DNA of 53,340 nt from Candidatus Gallimonas merdigallinarum (GTDB taxonomy: Bacteria > Bacillota > Clostridia > Christensenellales > Borkfalkiaceae). The stretch is from contig CAJFFP010000021.1 in assembly GCA_904373325.1 (NCBI GenBank), positions 1 to 53,340 of the forward strand, given 5' to 3'. Shown here one piece after another: positions 1 to 50,881 of the stretch. The first letter of the stretch is position 1; every line of letters begins with the position of its first letter. Both the position numbers and the translations under genes were made by a program. The notes beneath the pieces are model-generated. The model did no database searches, was not told the DNA's origin, and saw nothing but the letters and a program-made list of their open reading frames with translations.

Positions 1-98
1 CTTCCCCCGAGGGGGAAGGCAAGGGGCGGGCGCGTACCCGCAACTTCCTGCTCAAATCACGGAATTTTGTCGTCCCTTTGGACGAGAAAATTCGTGAA
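1..98 (-). repeat. PMH structured repeat, copy 1 (cut by window edge)
   Basis: Read on the minus strand it begins one base after the ridA stop codon with GGTTCACGAATTTTC. It forms stem 1: CACGAATTTTCTCGTCC pairs with GGACGACAAAATTCCGTG around the loop AAAG. The family linker CGTGATTTGAG follows. The rest holds the start of a stem-2 arm and a nested hairpin of the CTTCCCCC/GGGGGAAG type at 1-18. It is the only minus-strand copy and follows a minus-strand gene, so it keeps the family rule of sense orientation just after a stop codon. Confidence 0.75.
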
Positions 99-6425: not shown

Positions 6426-6516
6426 TTCACACTTTTTTCCGCGTTCACGAAATTTTGCGAGCAAAGATGCGACAAATTTCCGTGATTTGAGATCAAATGC
6501 AACGAACAACGAACGG
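6426..6516 (+). repeat. PMH structured repeat, copy 2 (partial)
   Basis: Starts at the base after the hemW stop codon with TTCACACTTTTTTCCGCG. A second left end, TTCACGAAATTT, follows at once and pairs with AAATTTCCGTGA about 18 bases later, giving stem 1 and the family linker CGTGATTTGAGA. The distal stems are not recognisable. The remaining bases to 6576 are AT-rich and hold no gene. Confidence 0.65.
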
Positions 6517-6576
6517 CGCGGCGCGCCTTTTTTTTGTATAAAATATCCGCTCCGCAATTTTTTTCTGCCGCAGGGG

Positions 6577-6604
6577 TTGACATTTCGGGGGGGGGTGGTA
6601 TGAT
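6577..6604 (+). promoter_or_regulatory. Upstream promoter of tldD
   Basis: TTGACA (6577-6582), a 16-base spacer containing a run of G, and TATGAT (6599-6604). Confidence 0.7.
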
Positions 6605-13412: not shown

Positions 13413-14948
13413 ATGCAGCATGAAAGAGTGCTCGTCCTCGATTTCGGCGGGCAGTATAACCAGCTCATCGCGCGCCGCGTGCGCGATCTGAACGTCTATT
13501 GCGATTTAAAACCCTGCGATATGACCGTTGAGGAGATCAAAGCGTACAATCCCATCGGCATCATTTTTACGGGCGGACCGAACAGCGTGTACGACCCCGC
13601 GTCTCCGCATATCGACGAGGCGGTCCTGTCGCTCGGCATTCCCGTGCTCGGCATCTGCTACGGCTGTCAGCTCATCGCCTATACGCTGGGCGGCAAGGTG
13701 GAGCACGCCGCGCAGAGCGAATACGGCAAGAGAGAATTTTCCTTCGTCAGGGAAAACCTGCTCTCCGTCGGAATCCCGAGAACGAGCGTCTGCTGGATGA
13801 GCCACACCGACCACGTCACCGAAGTTCCGCAGGGGTTTGAGATCCTTGCGTCCACGGAGAGCTGCCCCGTCACCGTCTACGGCAGCGCGGAAAAACGCGT
13901 CTACGGCGTGCAGTTCCACCCCGAGGTCGTCCATTCGGAGTACGGCAACGAGATCCTCAAAAACTTCCTCTACAACGTGTGCGGCGCGAAGGGCGATTGG
14001 ACGATGTCCAACTTCGTCGCCGAGCAGGTCGCGTCCCTCAAAGCCAAGATCGGCGATAAAAAGGTGCTGTGCGCCATGTCGGGCGGCGTGGATTCCGCCG
14101 TCGCCGCAACGCTCGTCCACCGCGCCGTCGGCGACCGGCTCGTCTGCGTGTTCGTCGATCACGGACTGCTGCGGAAGGGCGAATCGGAAGAGGTCATGGA
14201 CGTTTTCAAGGGAAAACTCGGCATGAACCTCATCCGCGCGGACGCGGGCGAACGTTTCCTCACCAAATTGGAGGGCGTCTCCGAACCCGAGCAGAAGCGC
14301 AAGATCATCGGCGCGGAGTTCATCAAGGTGTTTGAAGCCGAGGCAAAGAAGATCGGCGCGGTCGATTTCCTCGTACAGGGGACGATCTACCCCGACGTCA
14401 TCGAGAGCGGAAAGGATAAGAGCGCCGTCATCAAATCGCACCACAACGTGGGCGGGCTTCCCTCCGTCGTCGATTTTAAGGAGATCGTCGAGCCGCTCCG
14501 CGACCTCTTCAAAGACGAGGTGCGCCGCGTCGGAACGGAGCTGGGGCTTCCCGATTCCGTCGTACAGCGTCAGCCCTTCCCGGGACCCGGGCTTGCCATC
14601 CGCATCATGGGCGAAGTCACGCGCGAAAAGCTGCAAACGCTGCGCGACGCCGACTATATTTTCCGCGAGGAGATCGCAAAAGCGGGATTAAACCGAGAGA
14701 TCTGGCAGTATTTTGCCGTCATCACCAATTCCAAAACGGTGGGCGTGCAGGGCGATTTCCGCACCTACGAGAACGTGATCGCGCTCCGCGCCGTCACGAG
14801 CGTGGACGCCATGACCGCCGATTGGGCGCGCATTCCGTACGACGTGTTGGAGAAGATTTCCAACCGCATCACGAACGAAGTGCCGCACGCCAACCGCATC
14901 GTGTACGACATTACCTCCAAACCGCCGGCAACCATCGAATGGGAGTGA
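13413..14948 (+). CDS. guaA: GMP synthase (glutamine-hydrolysing), full length
   Basis: 511 residues with all three domains. A class I glutamine amidotransferase has its nucleophile in GICYGCQ (Cys near residue 83) and the triad His-x-Glu in FHPEVVHS. The N-type ATP pyrophosphatase has the P-loop SGGVDSAVA near residue 225. The dimerisation domain ends in the conserved KPPATIEWE. It aminates XMP to GMP. It follows guaB directly. PMH copy 3 begins four bases after the stop codon. Confidence 0.97.
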
Positions 14949-14952
14949 AAGG

Positions 14953-15311
14953 TTCACGAATTTCTTTTTGAACTGACAAAAAGAAATTCCGTGATTTTTT
15001 AGAGAAACCCAACGTTCGCCATTGGCTCTGCGTTCGGTTTCTCTCGACAGCGCGCAAGTGGCAACATTTTGGCGCGCGCTGCCTCACTCTTCCGCAAAAG
15101 CCGTGCAAGCGGCAAATTGAGGTGAGCGCGTACGTTATGCTGACAGCCCCTGTGGGGCTTCGGCGTATGCGCGAACTAAGAAATTGCCATTTCAGCGGCA
15201 ATTTCGTGACCGAGACGGCACACTACCTTGGTGCCGTCGAGAGCAAAAGGCATAACGCAGTGACGCCTTTTGCAACAGGTTTTATAGCGGGTTCACGAAT
15301 TTCTTTTTAAA
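14953..15311 (+). repeat. PMH structured repeat, copy 3 (proximal and distal halves)
   Basis: Starts four bases after the guaA stop. Stem 1: GAATTTCTTTTT/AAAAAGAAATTC around loop GAACTGAC. Stem 2: AGAGAAACC..AACG/CGTT..GGTTTCTCT. Stem 3: AGCGCGC/GCGCGCT. Stem 4: GCCG/CGGC followed by AAATTGAGG. Distal half: GCGCGTACG/CGTATGCGC enclosing AGCCCC/GGGGCT, then the linker GAACTAAG, then GAAATTGCC/GGCAATTTC, ACGGCAC/GTGCCGT and GCAAAAGGC/GCCTTTTGC. It closes with a second left end (GGTTCACGAATTTC) at about 15290. This is the whole of the 386-base gap before the second GMP synthase gene; no protein is supported. Confidence 0.85.
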
Positions 15312-15334: not shown

Positions 15335-16312
15335 ATGAGCAACAAGAGACCGGAAACCATGGAACGTATCGCGACGCCCGCGCTTGCGGAGGCGTTCATC
15401 GACGAGCAGATCAAGGCGATCAGGGCGCAGGTGGGGGAGAAAAAAGTTCTTCTCGCGCTCTCGGGCGGGGTGGATTCCTCCGTCGTCGCCGCGCTGCTCA
15501 TCAAGGCGATCGGCAAAAACCTCGTGTGCGTACACGTCAATCACGGACTTCTGAGAAAGGGCGAGCCCGAGCAGGTCGTGGAGGTGTTCCGCGGACAGAT
15601 GGACGCCAACCTCGTCTACGTGGACGCGGTCGACCGCTTTCTCGATAAACTTGCGGGCGTTTCCGAGCCCGAACAGAAGCGCAAGATCATCGGCGCGGAG
15701 TTTATCCGCGTGTTTGAAGAGGAGGCGCGCAAGCAGGAAGGCATCGAGTTTCTGGCGCAGGGAACGATCTATCCCGACATTTTGGAGAGCGGTCCCGTCA
15801 AGGCGCATCACAACGTGGGCGGACTTCCCGACGATCTCCGATTCGAGCTTGTCGAACCCCTGAAATTCCTGTTCAAAGACGAAGTCCGCGTCGTCGGCAA
15901 GGCGTTGGGTCTGCCCGATAACATGGTGTACCGTCAGCCCTTCCCCGGTCCCGGGCTGGGCGTGCGCTGCCTCGGCGCGATCACGCGCGACAGATTGGAA
16001 GCCGTGCGCGAGTCGGACGCGATCCTGCGCGAAGAGTTTGCAAAGAACGGTCTGGAAGGGAAGGTGTGGCAGTACTTTACCGTCGTGCCCGATTTCAAAT
16101 CGGTCGGCGTGAAGGACGGGAAGCGTTCCTTCGAGTATCCCGTTATTCTGCGCGCCGTCAACACCAAGGACGCCATGACCGCAACGGTCGAGGATGTGCC
16201 GTTCGCGCTGTTGCAGCAAATTACGGAGCGCATCACGCACGAGGTGAAGGGCGTCAACCGCGTTCTCTACGATCTCACCCCCAAGCCCACGGGTACGATC
16301 GAGTGGGAGTAA
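15335..16312 (+). CDS. Stand-alone GMP synthase ATP-pyrophosphatase subunit paralogue
   Basis: 325 residues corresponding to the C-terminal two thirds of GuaA. The P-loop SGGVDSSVV is near residue 44, the signature [15 protein letters not shown] and the FPGPGL motif are intact, and the dimerisation domain ends TPKPTGTIEWE. There is no amidotransferase domain. This is the architecture of the two-subunit GMP synthases of many archaea (GuaAb), which need a separate glutaminase or free ammonia. It lies directly after a complete guaA and differs clearly from it, so it is a diverged paralogue. It has a strong AAGGAG site, so it is probably expressed. Amination of XMP is the likely reaction; another nucleotide is possible. 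Confidence 0.85.
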   Translation: MSNKRPETMERIATPALAEAFIDEQIKAIRAQVGEKKVLLALSGGVDSSVVAALLIKAIGKNLVCVHVNHGLLRKGEPEQVVEVFRGQMDANLVYVDAVDRFLDKLAGVSEPEQKRKIIGAEFIRVFEEEARKQEGIEFLAQGTIYPDILESGPVKAHHNVGGLPDDLRFELVEPLKFLFKDEVRVVGKALGLPDNMVYRQPFPGPGLGVRCLGAITRDRLEAVRESDAILREEFAKNGLEGKVWQYFTVVPDFKSVGVKDGKRSFEYPVILRAVNTKDAMTATVEDVPFALLQQITERITHEVKGVNRVLYDLTPKPTGTIEWE

Positions 16313-16317
16313 AATAA

Positions 16318-16656
16318 TTCACACTTTTTTCCGCGAACTGACGTCGTCGCGGCGGAGCGCACCCTGCGGGCGGTTCGGCTGCGCCGAACGCCGCGCTTAA
16401 AACGCTCGCCGCTCCTCTTCGCAAAAAATCTTTCTGCGCGAAATCTTTTTTGCGAGTGCTGTGGTATGAGAATGTCGTGATTTTGAGAGACAACCCGCGG
16501 ATATGCCTGCGGCTGACCGCGTGTTTTCTCTCTGCGGCGCAATCGCAACAGTATAGCTGCGCCGCATTCACTCTTTCGTCGTAAGCGCAGGTATGCGCAA
16601 ATTGAGTACCGCAGCGCAAAAGCGTGGTTTTGCTCGCGGACATGATTTATAGCAGG
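16318..16656 (+). repeat. PMH structured repeat, copy 4, with nested 99-bp module in stem 1
   Basis: Begins five bases after the preceding stop codon with TTCACACTTTTTTCCGCGAA. The expected closing arm of stem 1 is displaced by a GC-rich insert (16340-16438 and flank). The family linker GTCGTGATTTTGAGAGAC then resumes. Stem 2: AGAGACAACCCGCGG/CCGCGTGTTTTCTCT. Stem 3: TGCGGCGCA/TGCGCCGCA around GCAACAGTATAGC. Stem 4: GCGCA/TGCGC followed by AAATTGAG. It ends with a GCAAAA/TTTTGC hairpin and TTTATAGCAGG, abutting copy 5. Confidence 0.85.
16340..16438 (+). repeat. 99-bp direct repeat, first copy
   Basis: Appears identical to 16679-16777. It contains a strong hairpin around GCGGTTCGGC-TGC-GCCGAACGCCGC inside a longer imperfect stem (GCGGCGGAGCG with CGCTCGCCGC). 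Homology continues with a 13-base indel and a few substitutions up to the CGTGATTTT linker. Confidence 0.9.
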
Positions 16657-16955
16657 TCCACACTTTTTCTTTCAAACAGACGTCGTCGCGGCGGAGCGCA
16701 CCCTGCGGGCGGTTCGGCTGCGCCGAACGCCGCGCTTAAAACGCTCGCCGCTCCTCTTCGCAAAAAATCTTTCTGCGGCGAGTGCTGCGGTACGACAATG
16801 TCGTGATTTTAAGAGACAACCCGCGGGTACATTGTTGTTCCCTGCCTTCCCCCTTGGGGGAAGGTGTCTGCAAAGCAGACGGATGAGGGGCAATCGTTTG
16901 ATGTTATCTGTTGGTTTTGTCTCAACTCTTTTTTCCGTGTACTGACGCAGGAGAT
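16657..16955 (+). repeat. PMH structured repeat, copy 5, with two nested modules
   Basis: Left end TCCACACTTTTTCTTTCA (one base off TTCAC) directly after copy 4. The 99-bp module follows, then the linker GTCGTGATTTTAAGAGAC. Inside the stem-2 loop is a second nested module: hairpins CCTTCCCCC-TT-GGGGGAAGG (16845-16864) and GTCTGC-AAA-GCAGAC (16866-16880). GGTTTTGTCTC near 16917 closes stem 2. A further left-end-like stretch, CAACTCTTTTTTCCG with ACTGAC, follows. No gene is present between 16313 and 17026. Confidence 0.75.
16679..16777 (+). repeat. 99-bp direct repeat, second copy
   Basis: Second copy of the module at 16340-16438, 339 bp downstream in the same orientation and in the same position relative to the PMH left end. 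Confidence 0.9.
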
Positions 16956-22183: not shown

Positions 22184-22291
22184 ATGGCAAATGGTATAAA
22201 ATAGAGGCGTTCATCGGCGGTGTTCATTGCGCAATCGCTTTTCGGACGGCATTTATATAATTTATATAATGTTATCAGAAATACGTCATAC

Positions 22292-22337
22292 GCTTCCGTA
22301 GTTAAATGGATATAACAGCCTCCTCCTAAGGAGTTGG
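22292..22337 (+). pseudogene. Duplicated 5' half of tRNA-Arg(CCT)
   Basis: GCTTCCGTAGTTAAATGG and the following bases through the anticodon arm match the intact tRNA-Arg at 22490 over about 45 bases with few differences. The anticodon stem has lost pairing, and the variable loop, T arm and acceptor 3' strand are absent. The 150 bases between the two copies hold no gene but contain a GGTATAAATTTT direct repeat. This looks like an integration or recombination scar. Confidence 0.75.
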
Positions 22338-22489
22338 TCTATCCACTAGATATTGCCCAAGACGCACGTTTTTCGGGCAAAACCGCTTGATTTATGCTTG
22401 TTTTCACGGGGCGGAAAAAAGTTGGTATAAATTTTGGTATAAAATTTTTTCCGACAATGATTTCTGCCTCGTGCAATAAAATTCAATAC

Positions 22490-22564
22490 GCTTCCGTAGT
22501 TAAATGGATATAACAGCCCCCTCCTAAGGGGCCGTTGTGGGTTCGATTCCCGCCGGGAGTACCA
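22490..22564 (+). tRNA. tRNA-Arg (anticodon CCT)
   Basis: 75 bases including an encoded CCA. Acceptor GCTTCCG/CGGGAGT (one G-T and one T-G pair), D arm with TAGTTAAATGG, anticodon stem GCCCC/GGGGC enclosing CTCCTAA (anticodon CCT), and T loop TTCGATT within GTGGG/CCCGC. It reads AGG codons. The 3' CCA overlaps the left arm of a long hairpin. Confidence 0.95.
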
Positions 22565-22604: not shown

Positions 22605-23400
22605 TAAAAAAGACAACCACTCGCTGAGCGAGTGGAAAAAGAGTTTATAACTATGGACAAAAATAAACTCCTGTAATAGAATTGAAGCGACTGGCAATCG
22701 CAACAAGGGTAAAACAGGAGGTCTAATGAAAGACATAGATAGTTTAGCACATACGAAGTGGCGGTGTCAATACCATATTGTGTTTGCGCCGAAATATCGC
22801 AGGCAAATCATATACGGAAAGTATAAGGCAGCGATAGGGAAGATATTGCGGCGGATATGCGAACGGTGCGATGGAGTGGAAATCATAGAGGCAAATGCGT
22901 GTGAAGATCATATCCATATGCTGGTAACAATCCCGCCAAAGATGAGTGTAAGTAAATTCATGGGGATACTCAAAGGGAAGAGTAGCCTGATGATATTTGA
23001 CCAATTCGCCAATTTGAAATACAAGTATGGAAACAGGCATTTTTGGTGCAGGGGATACTATGTAGACACGGTAGGACGTAACAAAGAGGCGATAAAGAAA
23101 TATATAGCAAACCAATTGCAAGAGGATCAGCTGTATGAACAACTGAGCATGAAGGAGTATATAGACCCGTTTACGGGTGAGCAGGTAAAAGGAAGCAAAT
23201 AAAAAACAGCCACCAAGAGGTGGCCGCTGAAAAGTTGTTGCGATTGTCAGGAACTTCAAGCACGAGTAGTGCCGCCGGTACCATGCGCTTGAAGCGCCTA
23301 ATCAACTTCAATAGGGGAGAACCAGCCGCACGAAGTGCGGCGGTTCGCCCCGACGCAGTCGGCACAAGGGCGCAGCCCGAAGTATTCCCGCCGGGCTTGG
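22605..23400 (+). mobile_element. IS200-type insertion sequence (tnpA only)
   Basis: A single Y1 transposase gene is flanked by short hairpins instead of inverted repeats, as in the IS200 group. The left subterminal hairpin is CCACTCGC-TGA-GCGAGTGG (22617-22635). Right-side hairpins are GCCACC-AAGA-GGTGGC (23209-23224) and GCCGCAC-GAA-GTGCGGC (23325-23341). Outer limits are approximate. The segment is visibly richer in AT than its surroundings. No tnpB or omega-RNA-like ORF is present. Confidence 0.75.
22726..23202 (+). CDS. tnpA: IS200/IS605 family Y1 transposase TnpA
   Basis: 158 residues. The HUH metal site is DHIHMLVTI (His-Ile-His near residue 63), and the nucleophilic tyrosine lies in the helix NKEAIKKYIANQ near residue 127. 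N-terminal TKWRCQYHIVFAPKYRR is the classic family start. TnpA dimers cut and rejoin single-stranded DNA at hairpin-guided sites during replication. Both key motifs are intact, so it may be active. The AGGAGG site is good. Codon use is AT-rich compared with the flanking genes, in keeping with recent acquisition. Confidence 0.95.
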   Translation: MKDIDSLAHTKWRCQYHIVFAPKYRRQIIYGKYKAAIGKILRRICERCDGVEIIEANACEDHIHMLVTIPPKMSVSKFMGILKGKSSLMIFDQFANLKYKYGNRHFWCRGYYVDTVGRNKEAIKKYIANQLQEDQLYEQLSMKEYIDPFTGEQVKGSK

Positions 23401-24003: not shown

Positions 24004-24351
24004 ATGAGAAGATTTTCTGAGAAGGTCATTTTGGCCGGACATCGCGGGGAACGTACCGTCGTCCCCGAAAATACGCTTGCAGCATTTCGTTATGCGCTGT
24101 CTTGCGGCGTTGATGCGATCGAAACGGATTTTCATTTATCGAAGGACGGTGTGCTGATGGTCATTCATGATCATACGCTGGAAAGAACGACTGACGGACA
24201 CGGCAGAGTATGCGATCATACATTTGCTCAGTTGCGTTCTCTTTCGGCAGGGAGCCGTTTTTCTGATGCGTTTGCGGAAGAACGTATTCCGACGGCAGAT
24301 CCTTTTTCTCAAAATTCTTTCAAAAAGAATTTTGAGAAGGAAATAAGGTAA
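24004..24351 (+). pseudogene. Glycerophosphodiester phosphodiesterase, truncated
   Basis: The first 97 or so residues are a good GDPD N-terminus: LAGHRGERTVVPENTLAAF, DAIETDFHLSKDG, IHDHTLERTTDGHG, and the start of the next block EERIPT. The family then continues for about 150 more residues, but here the frame runs straight into a hairpin repeat (from 24305) and stops, so half of the barrel is missing. Promoter and GAGGAG site are intact. It is not a copy of the full GDPD gene at 1753, being different in sequence and more AT-rich. A stable short protein is unlikely. Confidence 0.85.
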
Positions 24352-24616
24352 ACGCCAAAGGTGCGAAGCAATCAAAAGCGGCAAGATGAGCGGTCAGATG
24401 CGGTGAGGGACGCTTTATGCGCATCGGCACAGTGTGCCGTGCGCGCGTCCCGAACTAAGGTTTTTGCTTTTTCAGCGCAAAAACCGTGCCCGTCCGACGC
24501 ATAGCGGCGCACGAGCGTAGCCGAAGTAGGCGGCGCTTTCCCTCGGCGCCGCCGAGAAAAGCCCGCAGCGCGTGCCGTGTGGCACGGGCAAGGGGTTCAA
24601 CAAAGTATGAGCGCAC
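24304..24616 (+). repeat. PMH structured repeat, copy 6 (distal half, inserted at GDPD break)
   Basis: Opens with a hairpin CTCAAAATTCTTT/AAAGAATTTTGAG at the GDPD break point. The distal half then follows: GGGACGC/GCGTCCC enclosing CGGCACA/TGTGCCG, the linker GAACTAAG, GGTTTTTGC/GCAAAAACC, a conserved stretch CGAGCGTAGCCGAAGTA, GGCGGCGC/GCGCCGCC and GCCCG/CGGGC. Each stem differs from copies 3 and 8 yet pairs. It fills the gap to the sugar isomerase gene; no protein is supported. Confidence 0.8.
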
Positions 24617-39228: not shown

Positions 39229-39762
39229 ATGGAATTTCGCGGTACGACCATCTGCGCCGTCAAGAAGGACGGCGTTACGGCGATCGCAGGCGACGGGCAG
39301 GTCACGATGGGCGAGTCGGTCGTCTTTAAGAACACGGCGATCAAGGTGCGCCGCATCTACGGCGGCAAGGTCATTCTGGGCTTTGCAGGCTCGGTGACGG
39401 ACGCGTTCGCGCTCTCCGAACGCTTCGAGGGAATGCTCAACAAGTTTGCGGGCAACCTCATGCGCTCCGCGGTGGAGCTTGCCGATATGTGGCGGAGCGA
39501 TAAGATCGGCAGGAAGCTTGACGCAATGATGATCACGGCGGACAAGGATACGCTTCTCATTCTCTCGGGAACGGGCGAGGTCATCGAACCGGACGAGGGC
39601 ATCTGCGCCATCGGGAGCGGCGGCAACTACGCGCTCGCCGCGGCGCGCGCGCTTGCGCAGAATACCGATTTTTCCGCAGAGGAGATCGCGCGCAAGTCGC
39701 TGAAAATCGCAAGCGAGATCTGCGTCTACACGAACGATCATATCATCTGCGAGACGGTGTAA
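39229..39762 (+). CDS. hslV: ATP-dependent protease peptidase subunit HslV (ClpQ)
   Basis: 177 residues. The catalytic N-terminal threonine is in [11 protein letters not shown]; a five-residue leader must be removed to expose it, as in other clostridial Hsl[10 protein letters not shown] and [19 protein letters not shown] follow. It forms the double hexameric proteolytic core, gated by HslU. In Bacillus this locus is codV-clpQ-clpY-codY; here the xerC/codV recombinase and codY are both absent. A PMH stem lies between it and hslU. Confidence 0.96.
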
Positions 39763-39767
39763 CAGGG

Positions 39768-39809
39768 TTCACACTTTTTCTTTCATCAGTTTGAAAGAAA
39801 AAGTGTGAA
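39768..39809 (+). repeat. PMH repeat, copy 7 (stem only)
   Basis: A perfect 18-bp inverted repeat: TTCACACTTTTTCTTTCA (39768-39785), loop TCAGTT, and its complement (39792-39809). It begins five bases after the hslV stop and is inside the hslVU operon. It is the PMH left end joined directly to its right end with nothing between, like a collapsed or minimal element. Confidence 0.9.
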
Positions 39810-41145: not shown

Positions 41146-41622
41146 TTCACACTTTTTTCCGCGAGCTGACACGGAAAAAAGTCGTGATTTTGAGAGACAA
41201 CCCGCGGGTGCGCCTGCGGCTGACCGCGTGTTTTCTCTCGGCGGCGATAAATGGCAACAGTATAGCATCGCCGCCTTCACTCTTTCCGCAAAAGCCGCGT
41301 GAGCGGCAAATTGAGGCGCAAAAGGCATAACGCAGTGACGCCTTTTGCAACGAATTATTAAGCAGGGCAACCCTGCTTGCGCAAGTGATTGGAAAGCCGC
41401 GTGAGCGGCAAATTGGGGTGAGCGGCGCGTTATGTGCACCACCGCAGTGCGGTGTGCGCGCGTCGCGAACTAAGAAATTGCCATTTCAGCGGCAATTTCG
41501 TGACCGTCCGACGCGAAGCGGCGCACGAGCGCAGCCGAAGTATGCGGCACACTACCTTGGTGCCGCCGAGATAAAAAGGCATAACGCAGTGACGCCTTTT
41601 GCAACGAATTTTTTAAGAAAAT
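41146..41622 (+). repeat. PMH structured repeat, copy 8 (longest)
   Basis: Stem 1: ACTTTTTTCCG/CGGAAAAAAGT. Stem 2: AGAGACAACCCGCGG/CCGCGTGTTTTCTCT. Stem 3: GGCGGCGAT/ATCGCCGCC around GCAACAGTATAGC. Stem 4: GCCGC-GTGA-GCGGC followed by AAATTGAGG. A GCAAAAGGC/GCCTTTTGC stem follows at 41318. Stem 4 then repeats at 41395, and the distal half begins: GCGGCGCG/CGCGTCGC enclosing CACCGCA/TGCGGTG, the linker GAACTAAG, GAAATTGCC/GGCAATTTC, GCGGCAC/GTGCCGC, and the last stem again. It fills the 499-base gap to hisS; no protein is supported. Confidence 0.85.
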
Positions 41623-44613: not shown

Positions 44614-44621
44614 TCCATGGG

Positions 44622-45701
44622 TGAATTATACTATTAAGTGCAACAGTTGAGAGAAAAAAAAGGAGTTCATACAAATCTGTGGTAAAATAGAGTTACGAAA
44701 CCAAATTTACACCAGAGGAGACTTGTATGAACTATCACCATTTTACCATAGAAGAGCGCTGTTGTCTACGAGAATACTACGTCAAAGGAAAAAGTTACCG
44801 TGAAATTGCAAGACTTTTGGGCAGGAATGTCAGCAGTATTTCCCGGGAGATCATGCGGAACAAGACATTCATGAACGCGAAGCCGGCTTATTACCCGTAT
44901 ACGGCGCAAAAGAAAAGCAACCTTCGGAACAGTTACCGCCACCGCGGGATGTTCTGGAAGCAAGAGGTATTGGATTACATAGACGAGAAATTGTCGCAAA
45001 CGTGGTCTCCCGAACAGATCTCCAAAACGCCGTGCGGGATAAAGATGCCGTCGTTCAAGACCATTTATCGTTGGATAGACGAAAGGTATCTTCGTTCCAC
45101 CCTTAAAAACCTGCGCAGGAAAGGGAAAACACGGAAGCGGTTGGGAAACGGTGGAAGGTTCACGACAGGGAAAAGCATACGCAAACGGGATAAGAGCGTA
45201 TACAATCGCAAAGAGTTCGGGCATTGGGAAGCGGACACGGTGGTGTCCGGACAAGGGAAAAGCAAGGCGTGTTTTGCCACGCTCGCGGAGAGAAAGACGA
45301 GATACTATATCGCGGTGAAGATCCCGGACAGGAAAGGAGAAACGATGGCGAAAGCGGTCATAGACGCGCTTTCCAAGTTCCCGAAAGAAGCGGTAAAGAC
45401 GATCACCTGCGACCGAGGGAGCGAGTTCGCCTGTTGGAGAGAGATAGAGAAAGCGCTGCAATGCGATATGTATTTCGCCGATCCGTACTGCGCATGGCAA
45501 AAAGGGACGAACGAAAACCTGAACGGACTGCTGCGGGAGTTTTACCCGAAAGGCAGGAATCTGTCAAGGGTCAGTCCCGCGACCCTGAAAAAGAACCTGG
45601 CGCTCTTAAACGCCAGGCCCAAGAAAGTTTTGCATTTCCGAACACCGCAAGATTTGTTCCAAGAAAATCTCACAAGGTGTTGCACTTAGTTTGACAATTC
45701 A
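44622..45701 (+). mobile_element. IS30-family insertion sequence
   Basis: Imperfect inverted ends. Left: TGAATT then seven bases then TAAGTGCAACA (44635-44645). Right end, read on the minus strand: TGAATT, seven bases, TAAGTGCAACA (45688-45678). One intact transposase gene of 320 codons lies between. It is placed between the glyA stop and the glyA terminator. A clear target duplication is not obvious. Confidence 0.85.
44727..45689 (+). CDS. IS30-family transposase
   Basis: 320 residues. N-terminal helix-turn-helix (FTIEERCCLREYYVKGKSYREIARLLGRNVSSISREI), a second HTH-like region around SPEQIS, and a DDE catalytic core: EADTV (first Asp), TCDRGSEF (second Asp) and GTNENLNGLLREFYPKG (Glu). All three acids are present, so it may be active. 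Codon use is less GC-rich than its neighbours. AGAGGAG precedes the ATG, and the stop lies in the right inverted repeat. Confidence 0.95.
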   Translation: MNYHHFTIEERCCLREYYVKGKSYREIARLLGRNVSSISREIMRNKTFMNAKPAYYPYTAQKKSNLRNSYRHRGMFWKQEVLDYIDEKLSQTWSPEQISKTPCGIKMPSFKTIYRWIDERYLRSTLKNLRRKGKTRKRLGNGGRFTTGKSIRKRDKSVYNRKEFGHWEADTVVSGQGKSKACFATLAERKTRYYIAVKIPDRKGETMAKAVIDALSKFPKEAVKTITCDRGSEFACWREIEKALQCDMYFADPYCAWQKGTNENLNGLLREFYPKGRNLSRVSPATLKKNLALLNARPKKVLHFRTPQDLFQENLTRCCT

Positions 45702-45753
45702 TCGGGTTTTGATTTCTCATTGTAAGCGAGCGCTACTTTATGAGATTGAATGA

Positions 45754-45825: not shown

Positions 45826-45941
45826 GATATTCTTTGGGGCGGAGTGAAAGTCTCCACCGGCAGTATAGTCTGCGAAGGGCGCAAGTCCCCGAACGGGTGT
45901 GATTCCCGTACCGACGGTTATAGTCCGGATGAGAAAGGAAA
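45826..45941 (+). ncRNA. FMN riboswitch (RFN element)
   Basis: Conserved RFN landmarks are in order: GGGGCGGAGTGAAAGTCTCC, ACCGGCAGTATAGTCTGCGA, CGGGTGTGATTCCCGTACCGA, CGGTTATAGTCCGGATGAGA. It binds FMN in the mRNA leader and, through the terminator at 45956, should switch off ribU when flavin is plentiful. Confidence 0.96.
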
Positions 45942-45955
45942 CAACGGCATTTCTG

Positions 45956-50557: not shown

Positions 50558-50881
50558 TTCACACTTTTTTCCGCGAGCTGACGCGGAAAAAAGTCGTGAT
50601 TTGAGGAAAAACCAACGGGCACGCTGTACGCTAACCGTTCGTTTTTCCTCTTCGCGCGAATTTTAGGGGCACAACCACAATACTTCGCGCGAATTCACCT
50701 TTTCGGGAAAGCCGCGTGAGCGGCAAATTGAGGCATACTGCGCAAAATGCGATTTTGCTTGTATCTGTAATTTATAACAAATTTACTGAGTTTGGTAAAG
50801 AAAAGGTTATGAATTACGTCCGCAAGGAAAGTTGCCTTCCGCTGCGGTACTCAATTTCAGTTTGAAAGAAAAAAGTGTGAA
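50558..50881 (+). repeat. PMH structured repeat, copy 9 (with both termini)
   Basis: Four bases after the murF-like stop. Left end TTCACACTTTTTTCC, right end AAAGAAAAAAGTGTGAA (50865-50881), giving imperfect terminal inverted repeats. Stem 1: ACTTTTTTCCGCG/CGCGGAAAAAAGT. Stem 2: GAGGAAAAAC..AACGG/CCGTT..GTTTTTCCTC. Stem 3: TTCGCGCGAA in both arms. Stem 4: GCCGC-GTGA-GCGGC then AAATTGAGG. GCAAAA/TTTTGC follows. The right part is AT-rich. It fills the gap before ddl; no gene. Confidence 0.85.

Follow-up and report, generated by a model that had tools for sequence, protein, structure and literature searches.

A REP-like multi-hairpin intergenic repeat of Candidatus Gallimonas and its close relatives, probably kept as folded DNA

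A multi-hairpin repeat of the gut bacterium Candidatus Gallimonas merdigallinarum is probably a family-restricted, non-autonomous and mosaic intergenic repeat resembling REP/BIME elements, maintained as folded DNA and diversified by the swapping of hairpins, as judged from sequence comparison. The preliminary description of the window (the whole stretch of DNA that was analysed, 53,340 nucleotides) had proposed selection for a folded RNA or single-stranded DNA. The sequences support selection on a folded single strand, because the two arms of the stems change together while the loops, a bulge and, mostly, an internal mismatch persist. The RNA part of that proposal fared differently, as can be seen below.

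Architecture of the repeat

The unit measures about 215 nt, having a four-hairpin core of about 170 nt and, usually, a tail hairpin of about 43 nt. Its parts follow one order: the gene-proximal hairpin 1 (hp1), hp2, hp3, a TTCAC linker, hp4, the sequence AAATTGAGG and the tail hairpin. Hp1 opens with TTCAC and closes with a bulged C followed by GTGA, and between them two complementary arms of 9-14 bases enclose a loop of six bases; the 5' end TTCAC is thus paired within hp1, and the base at position -1 is a G in 74% of 105 aligned 5' flanks. When perfect-armed hp1s were sought with no bulge required, 124 of 141 carried a C, 14 carried TC and three had no bulge, one of these three being a lone palindrome with the inverted loop TCAGTT, which is found in this single hp1 among the 141. 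This recount was made since a previous figure of 196 of 200 came from a script that itself required the bulge and is therefore no evidence for it. That wider set of 200 hp1s, which allowed up to two mismatches and demanded the bulge, has 131 AACTGA loops, 24 CAAAGG loops and nine AGCTGA loops, and 38 different perfect arms are present.

Regarding the other hairpins, the outer and inner stems of hp2 are separated by a mismatch, which is kept in 71 of the 99 rows with both letters (C-C in 37 and C-T in 34) and is paired in 28. The hp3 loop lies around GCAACA..TAGC, hp4 is short, and the tail hairpin has at least two forms and ends near ATTTATARC, a 3' end identified in 30 of 112 cores. These 112 cores were chosen by eye from two match tables of 152 rows each, leaving out repeats of one place, antisense matches and weak fragments. 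Units are found single, head-to-tail or tail-to-tail; among 103 copies, the first partner within 750 nt was inverted in 23 and head-to-tail in seven, and the scan gave none for 73. Terminal inverted repeats are absent from single units and present in tail-to-tail pairs.

Further subfamilies, recognised by eye, have the identical order of parts with other sequences. One of them, starting with TTCGCGCAAACC, was observed in three loci (L103, L107 and L115) of a genome from another genus of the family (G352), where it sits head-to-tail ahead of the core type and has a similar hairpin order by eye and a different sequence.

Copies in the window

The copies and copy fragments of the window are as follows, with the bit scores of the covariance model R2 where it gave a match.

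41146..41316, plus strand: full core, the best-scoring copy (R2 185 bits, fold), starting 4 nt past a stop codon
41147-41187, hp1; 41192-41239, hp2; 41240-41275, hp3; then the linker; 41294-41307, hp4; AAATTGAGG up to 41316: parts of the 41146 core
41318..41348, plus strand: tail hairpin 5 of the same copy, of the GCAAAAGGC / GCCTTTTGC type (sequence)
14953..15122, plus strand: full core, 4 nt past the guaA stop codon (R2 153.7 bits, fold z -4.5)
50558..50733, plus strand: full core, 4 nt past the stop codon of a MurF-like gene (R2 155.2 bits, fold z -6.3)
50734..50777, plus strand: tail hairpin 5 of the ATAC...GTAT type, with the 3' end GTAATTTATAAC (sequence)
50778..50881, minus strand: deleted inverted partner with a GTGTGAA end, making a tail-to-tail pair (sequence, by eye)
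16318..16607, plus strand: core with hp1 interrupted by another repeat (R2 121.7 bits, BLAST); the 5' side of hp1 is 16318-16342 and the remainder 16471-16607
16657..16828, plus strand: second interrupted copy, truncated in hp2 (sequence; BLAST piece 16797-16828), with no R2 match of its own
39768..39809, no strand assigned: a palindrome standing alone between hslV and hslU, perfect and hp1-like, with its loop inverted and the bulge missing (sequence); over it R2 gives a minus-strand match at 39664-39809 (41.9 bits)
1..98, minus strand: subfamily B element truncated by the window edge, with CAAAGG as its hp1 loop (R2 34.2 bits, sequence)
6426..6492, plus strand: hp1 remnants directly past a stop codon (sequence); the R2 match here covers 6444-6590 (19.6 bits, E 0.0038)

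The names hslV, hslU, hisS and murF (for the MurF-like gene) are those presumed from the proteins. The three full cores fold 3.7 to 6.3 standard deviations better than shuffles. As seen by eye, the GCAAAAGGC / GCCTTTTGC tail type recurs behind many cores, and the 3' end GTAATTTATAAC is common to other copies.

The preliminary description, which had counted at least nine copies, is confirmed in part. Three full cores (14953, 41146 and 50558) and one interrupted core (16318) stand, and the places at 1-98, 6426, 16657 and 39768 hold fragments only, whereas the hairpin at 24304 has neither an R2 match nor the TTCAC/GTGA base and is not counted as a copy. The stem pairs that had been cited are present in the sequence. 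The span 14953-15311 given for one copy overshoots, as its core stops at 15122 and the remainder consists of tail repeats. In addition, GCAACAGTATAGC, which had been presented as a shared loop, is exact at 16545 and 41254 only; with up to three mismatches it has 10 matches in the window against 6.6 expected, and 10 or more were reached in eight of 100 shuffles, a frequency not significantly above chance, so that the motif on its own proves nothing.

Two other repeats were noticed beside these copies. The repeat found inside hp1 of two copies, beginning TCGTCGCGGCGGAGCGCACC, occupies 16343-16470 and 16683-16796, and parts of it recur by eye in four loci (L017, L020, L022 and L046). A second abundant repeat, GTGAGCGGCGCGTTATG...GCGGCAATTTCGTGACC, lies at 41415-41506 and, by eye, near 15125-15230 and 24405-24520, and accounts for 15 of the matches listed for G011. 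Moreover, the complete guaA (13413-14948) is followed by a shorter GuaA-like gene (15335-16312) that matches the C-terminal synthase part only and is flanked on both sides by copies of the multi-hairpin repeat.

Copy number and distribution

In the source genome, a 1.56-Mb draft that is 92.6% complete, BLASTN with one core gave 50 matches, some being pieces of one copy, and R2 gave at least 46 (46 of the 46 candidates scored). Within the genus, R2 matches were present in 28 of 61 genomes, eight of them with 23 to 46 as lower bounds, and the other 33 had no match at the threshold used (E up to 0.01). The order-wide draw gave matches in eight of 297 genomes, all from the same family and from three genera (its own and two sister genera), and the class-wide draw gave one of 391, which is the source genome; no match outside the family was found among these 297 order-level and 391 class-level genomes at coarse settings. 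Both draws overlap, include family members and had few candidates scored in each genome, so they bound the spread only roughly. As at most 46 candidates per genome were scored at the genus level, and, with stricter filters, nine order-wide and seven class-wide, the copy numbers from these scans are minimum values and weak occurrences may have escaped them; one genome (G049) had two matches in the genus-level scan and none in the order- or class-wide scans.

A DNA-pattern scan of named genomes found the element in Candidatus Gallimonas and in Clostridia metagenome-assembled genomes, beside chance matches elsewhere. The match of G044, a genome of the genus, at C19:1816-1982 equals in place and score that of L174, a G. 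caecicola contig, which points to Gallimonas as the genus. The model confirmed none of 21 loci tested from unrelated organisms, which were treated as chance, and none of three viral matches, so a phage source was set aside. A comparison with Rfam, which had been advised in the preliminary description, gave no family at gathering score at any copy in the window, nor in eight loci. A lax scan of four loci (E up to 5) returned SurA (E 4.3, 14 of 100 bits), overlapping the L036 copy, and mir-1275 (E 0.22, 24 of 71 bits), downstream of the L012 core, both taken as chance. No description of the multi-hairpin repeat was found in the literature searched, the closest being papers on REP/BIME elements, and of the publications naming Gallimonas together with "repeat" none is about repeats, judged by title and abstract start.

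Covariation of the stems

Covariation was measured in two alignments: A1, a MAFFT alignment of 39 cores from 53 extracted copies, and A3, 100 distinct cores aligned to the covariance model. In A1, 89.8% of 1732 cells pair and two-sided changes amount to 342, compared to 118 in shuffles, and pairing falls to 54.3% or less when the partner is slid. In A3, 95.4% of 4431 cells pair, with 1147 two-sided changes compared to 381 in shuffles, and 41 of 45 pairs have such a change. Both sets of figures lean towards the structure, since it was derived from A1 and A3 was then fitted to it. The covariation of stems between copies, as first reported from the window, is thus far above shuffled and slid controls over many copies. 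Two measures in A1 do not favour the structure, as 55 of 500 shuffles equal its count of pairs with a two-sided change and all 500 equal its count of pair types; in A3 these counts are reached by none and by four of 500 shuffles, respectively.

The pattern is clearest in hp1, where one-sided changes affect one of 653 cells in A1, against 134 two-sided ones. The mean majority fraction in the same alignment is 1.00 for the hp1 base, 0.97 for the hp1 loop and 0.85 for the linker, and 0.65-0.78 for the stems. The first RNAalifold structure lacked hp3, we think because MAFFT shifts the hp3 stem between alleles; this hairpin is paired at 67% in A1 and at 98% in A3, the latter having been fitted to the structure.

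Exchange of hairpins and origin of new arms

Modules assort nearly freely among copies, and some linkage remains. The 75 parseable copies out of 112 show 71 distinct combinations, which says little alone given so many alleles, and mutual information between modules is 0.06 to 0.35 bit above shuffles (z 0.8 to 5.4). Whole hairpins are seen to be exchanged in G352, whose copies are 88-97% alike over much of their length: the entire hp3 of L091 and L107 differs from that of L097, L103 and L115, and in L115 the entire hp1 differs as well. Among distinct hp1s differing at one place, 30 pairs differ in both arms and 18 in one, so intermediates exist but are a minority. The preliminary description had reasoned that simple decay of a DNA repeat gives random mismatches in the stems, the reverse of what is seen. 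That argument is incomplete, as paired changes can also arise by two routes at the DNA level, namely the wholesale hairpin swapping observed here and template switching in replication, as described in PMC8794818. A clean inversion of a composite, comparing G000 with a relative, was considered from their opposite order and rejected; the A elements are only 85% alike and carry another hp1 allele, making independent replacement as likely as inversion.

If the repeat is indeed kept as folded DNA, the unit would be preserved because it must fold as a single strand (or as a cruciform) for copying to new sites, similar to the thinking on REP and IS200-type elements; copies that do not fold would not be propagated. 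Recombination through the conserved linkers would then exchange whole hairpins, and inserts would survive mainly from a stop codon to the next ribosome-binding site. Opposed to this explanation are the lack of a linked enzyme, of a target-site duplication and of a clean recent insertion, the linkage between modules, the three of 141 hp1s with no bulge, the 28 of 99 hp2 mismatch positions that are paired and the 25 of 104 copies that belong to neither gene-edge class.

A further-reaching reading, which we regard as rather unlikely, is that of a previously undescribed class of mobile element, which would travel as a string of single-stranded DNA hairpins whose shape (bulge, loops and linkers) is recognised by an enzyme, with the hairpins as exchangeable cassettes. 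Were it true, compensatory evolution would proceed by the swapping of whole stems and not base by base, and the repeat would offer a natural system in which single-stranded DNA folds drive the spread of repeats.

Complementary arms could also be produced by template-switch (quasipalindrome) repair in replication, where one arm is copied from the other and no selection acts on the fold, an explanation that we consider unlikely. It accounts for pairing restricted to Watson-Crick pairs and for the scarce one-sided changes, and the lone palindrome at 39768, with its inverted loop and no bulge, is the trace expected from it. However, arm copying should erase the bulge, which is kept in 138 of 141 hp1s, and the hp2 mismatch, which persists with varying letters in 71 of 99 rows, and the fixed loops and linkers would still require selection or recent common descent. 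The inverted loop TCAGTT is limited to the lone palindrome among 141 hp1s, but PMC8794818, which describes the process for RNA hairpins, found loop inversions to be rare even where template switching is seen. The palindrome itself can be explained by a template switch or, alternatively, by a deletion that joined the similar arms of two units placed tail-to-tail.

Genomic sites and orthologous spacers

Placement was counted for the 104 of 112 cores with long enough, distinct flanks, and 79 of them adjoin a gene end or start. As many as 54 begin 0-10 nt past the stop codon of an open reading frame that has 120 codons or more. A further 25 precede, by 10-23 nt, an opposite-strand start codon accompanied by a Shine-Dalgarno-like motif (from a broad motif list), and 25 belong to neither class. 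Among 20,000 random positions, 2.2% fall past a stop and 4.0% before a start (about 6% in total), and among 8,000 positions outside long reading frames the values are 2.8% and 1.5% (4.3% in total).

The hslU-hisS spacer was examined in 30 of the 56 genus genomes having hslU. The element is located 4 nt past hslU in G000 and 3 nt past it in G074, with different hairpins, and is reversed in G013; other element-like sequences were seen by eye in G006, G007, G023, G060, G062, G065, G072 and G076, and short spacers lacking the element also occur, such as those of G055 (12 nt) and G015 (81 nt). Behind the MurF-like gene there is a subfamily A element in G000 and a subfamily B element in G074, and none was found by eye in G011, G015 and G044. 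Between hslV and hslU, G000 has the lone palindrome only, G011 a tail-to-tail pair whose right flank is beyond the contig, G074 another composite and G015 no element. Filled and empty orthologous spacers thus indicate gain or loss, and near-copies at several places of one genome indicate spread.

Folded DNA or folded RNA

If one strand acted as RNA, G-U would be expected above A-C at paired positions. In A3, G-T is found in 43 and A-C in 40 of 4431 cells; without the two pairs at mismatches and the innermost pair of hp2, the counts are 22 and 39, and for hp1 alone they are six and seven of 1675 cells. A fold computed with no G-U pairs gives 1x1 mismatches of 14 G-T and 25 A-C beside 5949 pairs. 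As a control, 30 FMN riboswitches of the genus gave six G-T and no A-C in 899 cells of RNAalifold pairs, the expected direction but a small sample, and the multi-hairpin repeat treated by the same method gave 20 and 16. A tRNA control was dropped, as just 12 tRNAs were too few. Over 39 cores, the antisense strand has a mean advantage in stability of 3.2 kcal/mol, and only six of them fold better as the sense strand.

The folded RNA of the preliminary description is therefore not borne out: neither strand has a G-U preference, both fold about equally (the antisense slightly better), copies face genes in both orientations, and a scan of one copy revealed no promoter-like site. A sense small RNA was rejected as first choice after the strand tests (G-U symmetry and antisense stability), and the overall pattern is closer to that of a mobile DNA repeat than to that of an RNA gene. 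A structured RNA selected locus by locus and folding in either orientation, as a small RNA or a leader or trailer of mRNAs, is in our view improbable. It agrees with the strong covariation and stability, gene-edge sites would place the element in mRNAs, and selection on transcripts of both orientations could mask a G-U excess; nevertheless, the absence of this excess relative to the FMN control, the lack of an Rfam family above threshold at a copy, the occurrence of copies beside the 3' ends of genes and, in reverse, beside their 5' ends, and the empty spacers at the same genes in related species count against it. A site kept at gene ends because it benefits the host, either by terminating transcription in both directions or by structuring the chromosome (through gyrase-, HU- or SMC-type binding), is very improbable, as it fits the 54 of 104 copies starting just past a stop codon but not the 25 of 104 just ahead of a start codon, the single terminator-like site in the scanned stretch against a shuffle mean of 1.7, the empty spacers of some relatives or the 33 of 61 genus genomes with no match at the threshold used.

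Very strong covariation is present here with no sign of RNA, and covariation-based pipelines for RNA discovery could accept such a repeat. A simple check for these cases is G-T versus A-C symmetry together with retained mismatches. An FMN riboswitch, of the family used as the control, lies in the window at 45826-45944, upstream of a gene for the substrate component of an ECF transporter.

Relation to known repeats and mobile elements

According to PMC3733652, most REPs between convergent reading frames lie within 20 bp of the 3' ends, and others are close to the 3' end of the upstream reading frame; REPs form dimers, have subsets with different stems and loops and, in the case of CGTC REPs, lack a dedicated transposase. 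The multi-hairpin repeat resembles the REP/BIME elements of that source in its high copy number, its intergenic sites near gene 3' ends, its heterogeneous stems and loops, its dimers in both orientations and its mosaic composites, and it is one of them in the wide sense of a high-copy, intergenic and palindromic mosaic with dimers in alternate orientation. However, a REP is a palindrome of 20-40 bp with an unpaired GTAG or CGTC at one end, and the present unit has five hairpins over about 215 nt and starts with TTCAC, lacking such a tag. GTAG REPs also have an associated RAYT, and none was found here, where the sole Y1 gene found is of the IS200 type. The repeat is therefore REP-like in behaviour and falls outside the defining size and tag of REPs.

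Other systems share part of these features. BOX, RUP and SPRITE of the pneumococcus are modular, structured and interspersed repeats of a Gram-positive chromosome, and the likeness is one of description; for BOX, we know of no whole-hairpin replacement with retained bulge and mismatch. Integron attC sites likewise conserve structure over sequence, act as one folded strand, have extrahelical bases and lie directly past stop codons, but attC is one hairpin and not five, and the repeat lies among housekeeping genes that stand in an unchanged order in relatives lacking it. MITEs are marked by terminal inverted repeats, a target-site duplication and a parent transposase; here such inverted repeats belong to tail-to-tail pairs and not to single units, and no duplication was visible by eye at the sites compared. 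The ends of IS200/IS605 elements have subterminal bulged hairpins processed as single-stranded DNA, whereas the hairpins flanking the IS200-type copy of the window (22726-23202) differ from the repeat by eye.

Regarding mobility, a target-site duplication was not seen by eye at the compared sites, and no insertion could be recognised as clean and recent among genomes of which even the nearest differ by about 5% or more. A Y1 search in 25 genomes linked no transposase or recombinase to the repeat. Y1_Tnp is present in seven of these 25 and, among 16 genus genomes, in two of nine with the repeat and two of seven lacking it (repeat status at E up to 0.01), so the IS200-type transposase was rejected as the mobiliser because the presence of its family does not follow the repeat. 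Its gene scores 153 bits with NF033573 (cut-off 55) and 30.9 bits with REP_Tyr_transpos (cut-off 80), and an IS element at 44618-45702, which we take to be IS30-like, was likewise put aside, its ends being unlike the repeat by eye.

The IS element at 44618-45702 has HTH_38 and rve domains, and its ends recur at contig ends in G015. The IS200-type gene, the sole Y1_Tnp match in the draft genome (92.6% complete), lies downstream of a tRNA gene and has hairpins on both sides as seen by eye, and a partial second copy of the tRNA at 22490-22561 was also seen by eye upstream, at 22290-22339.
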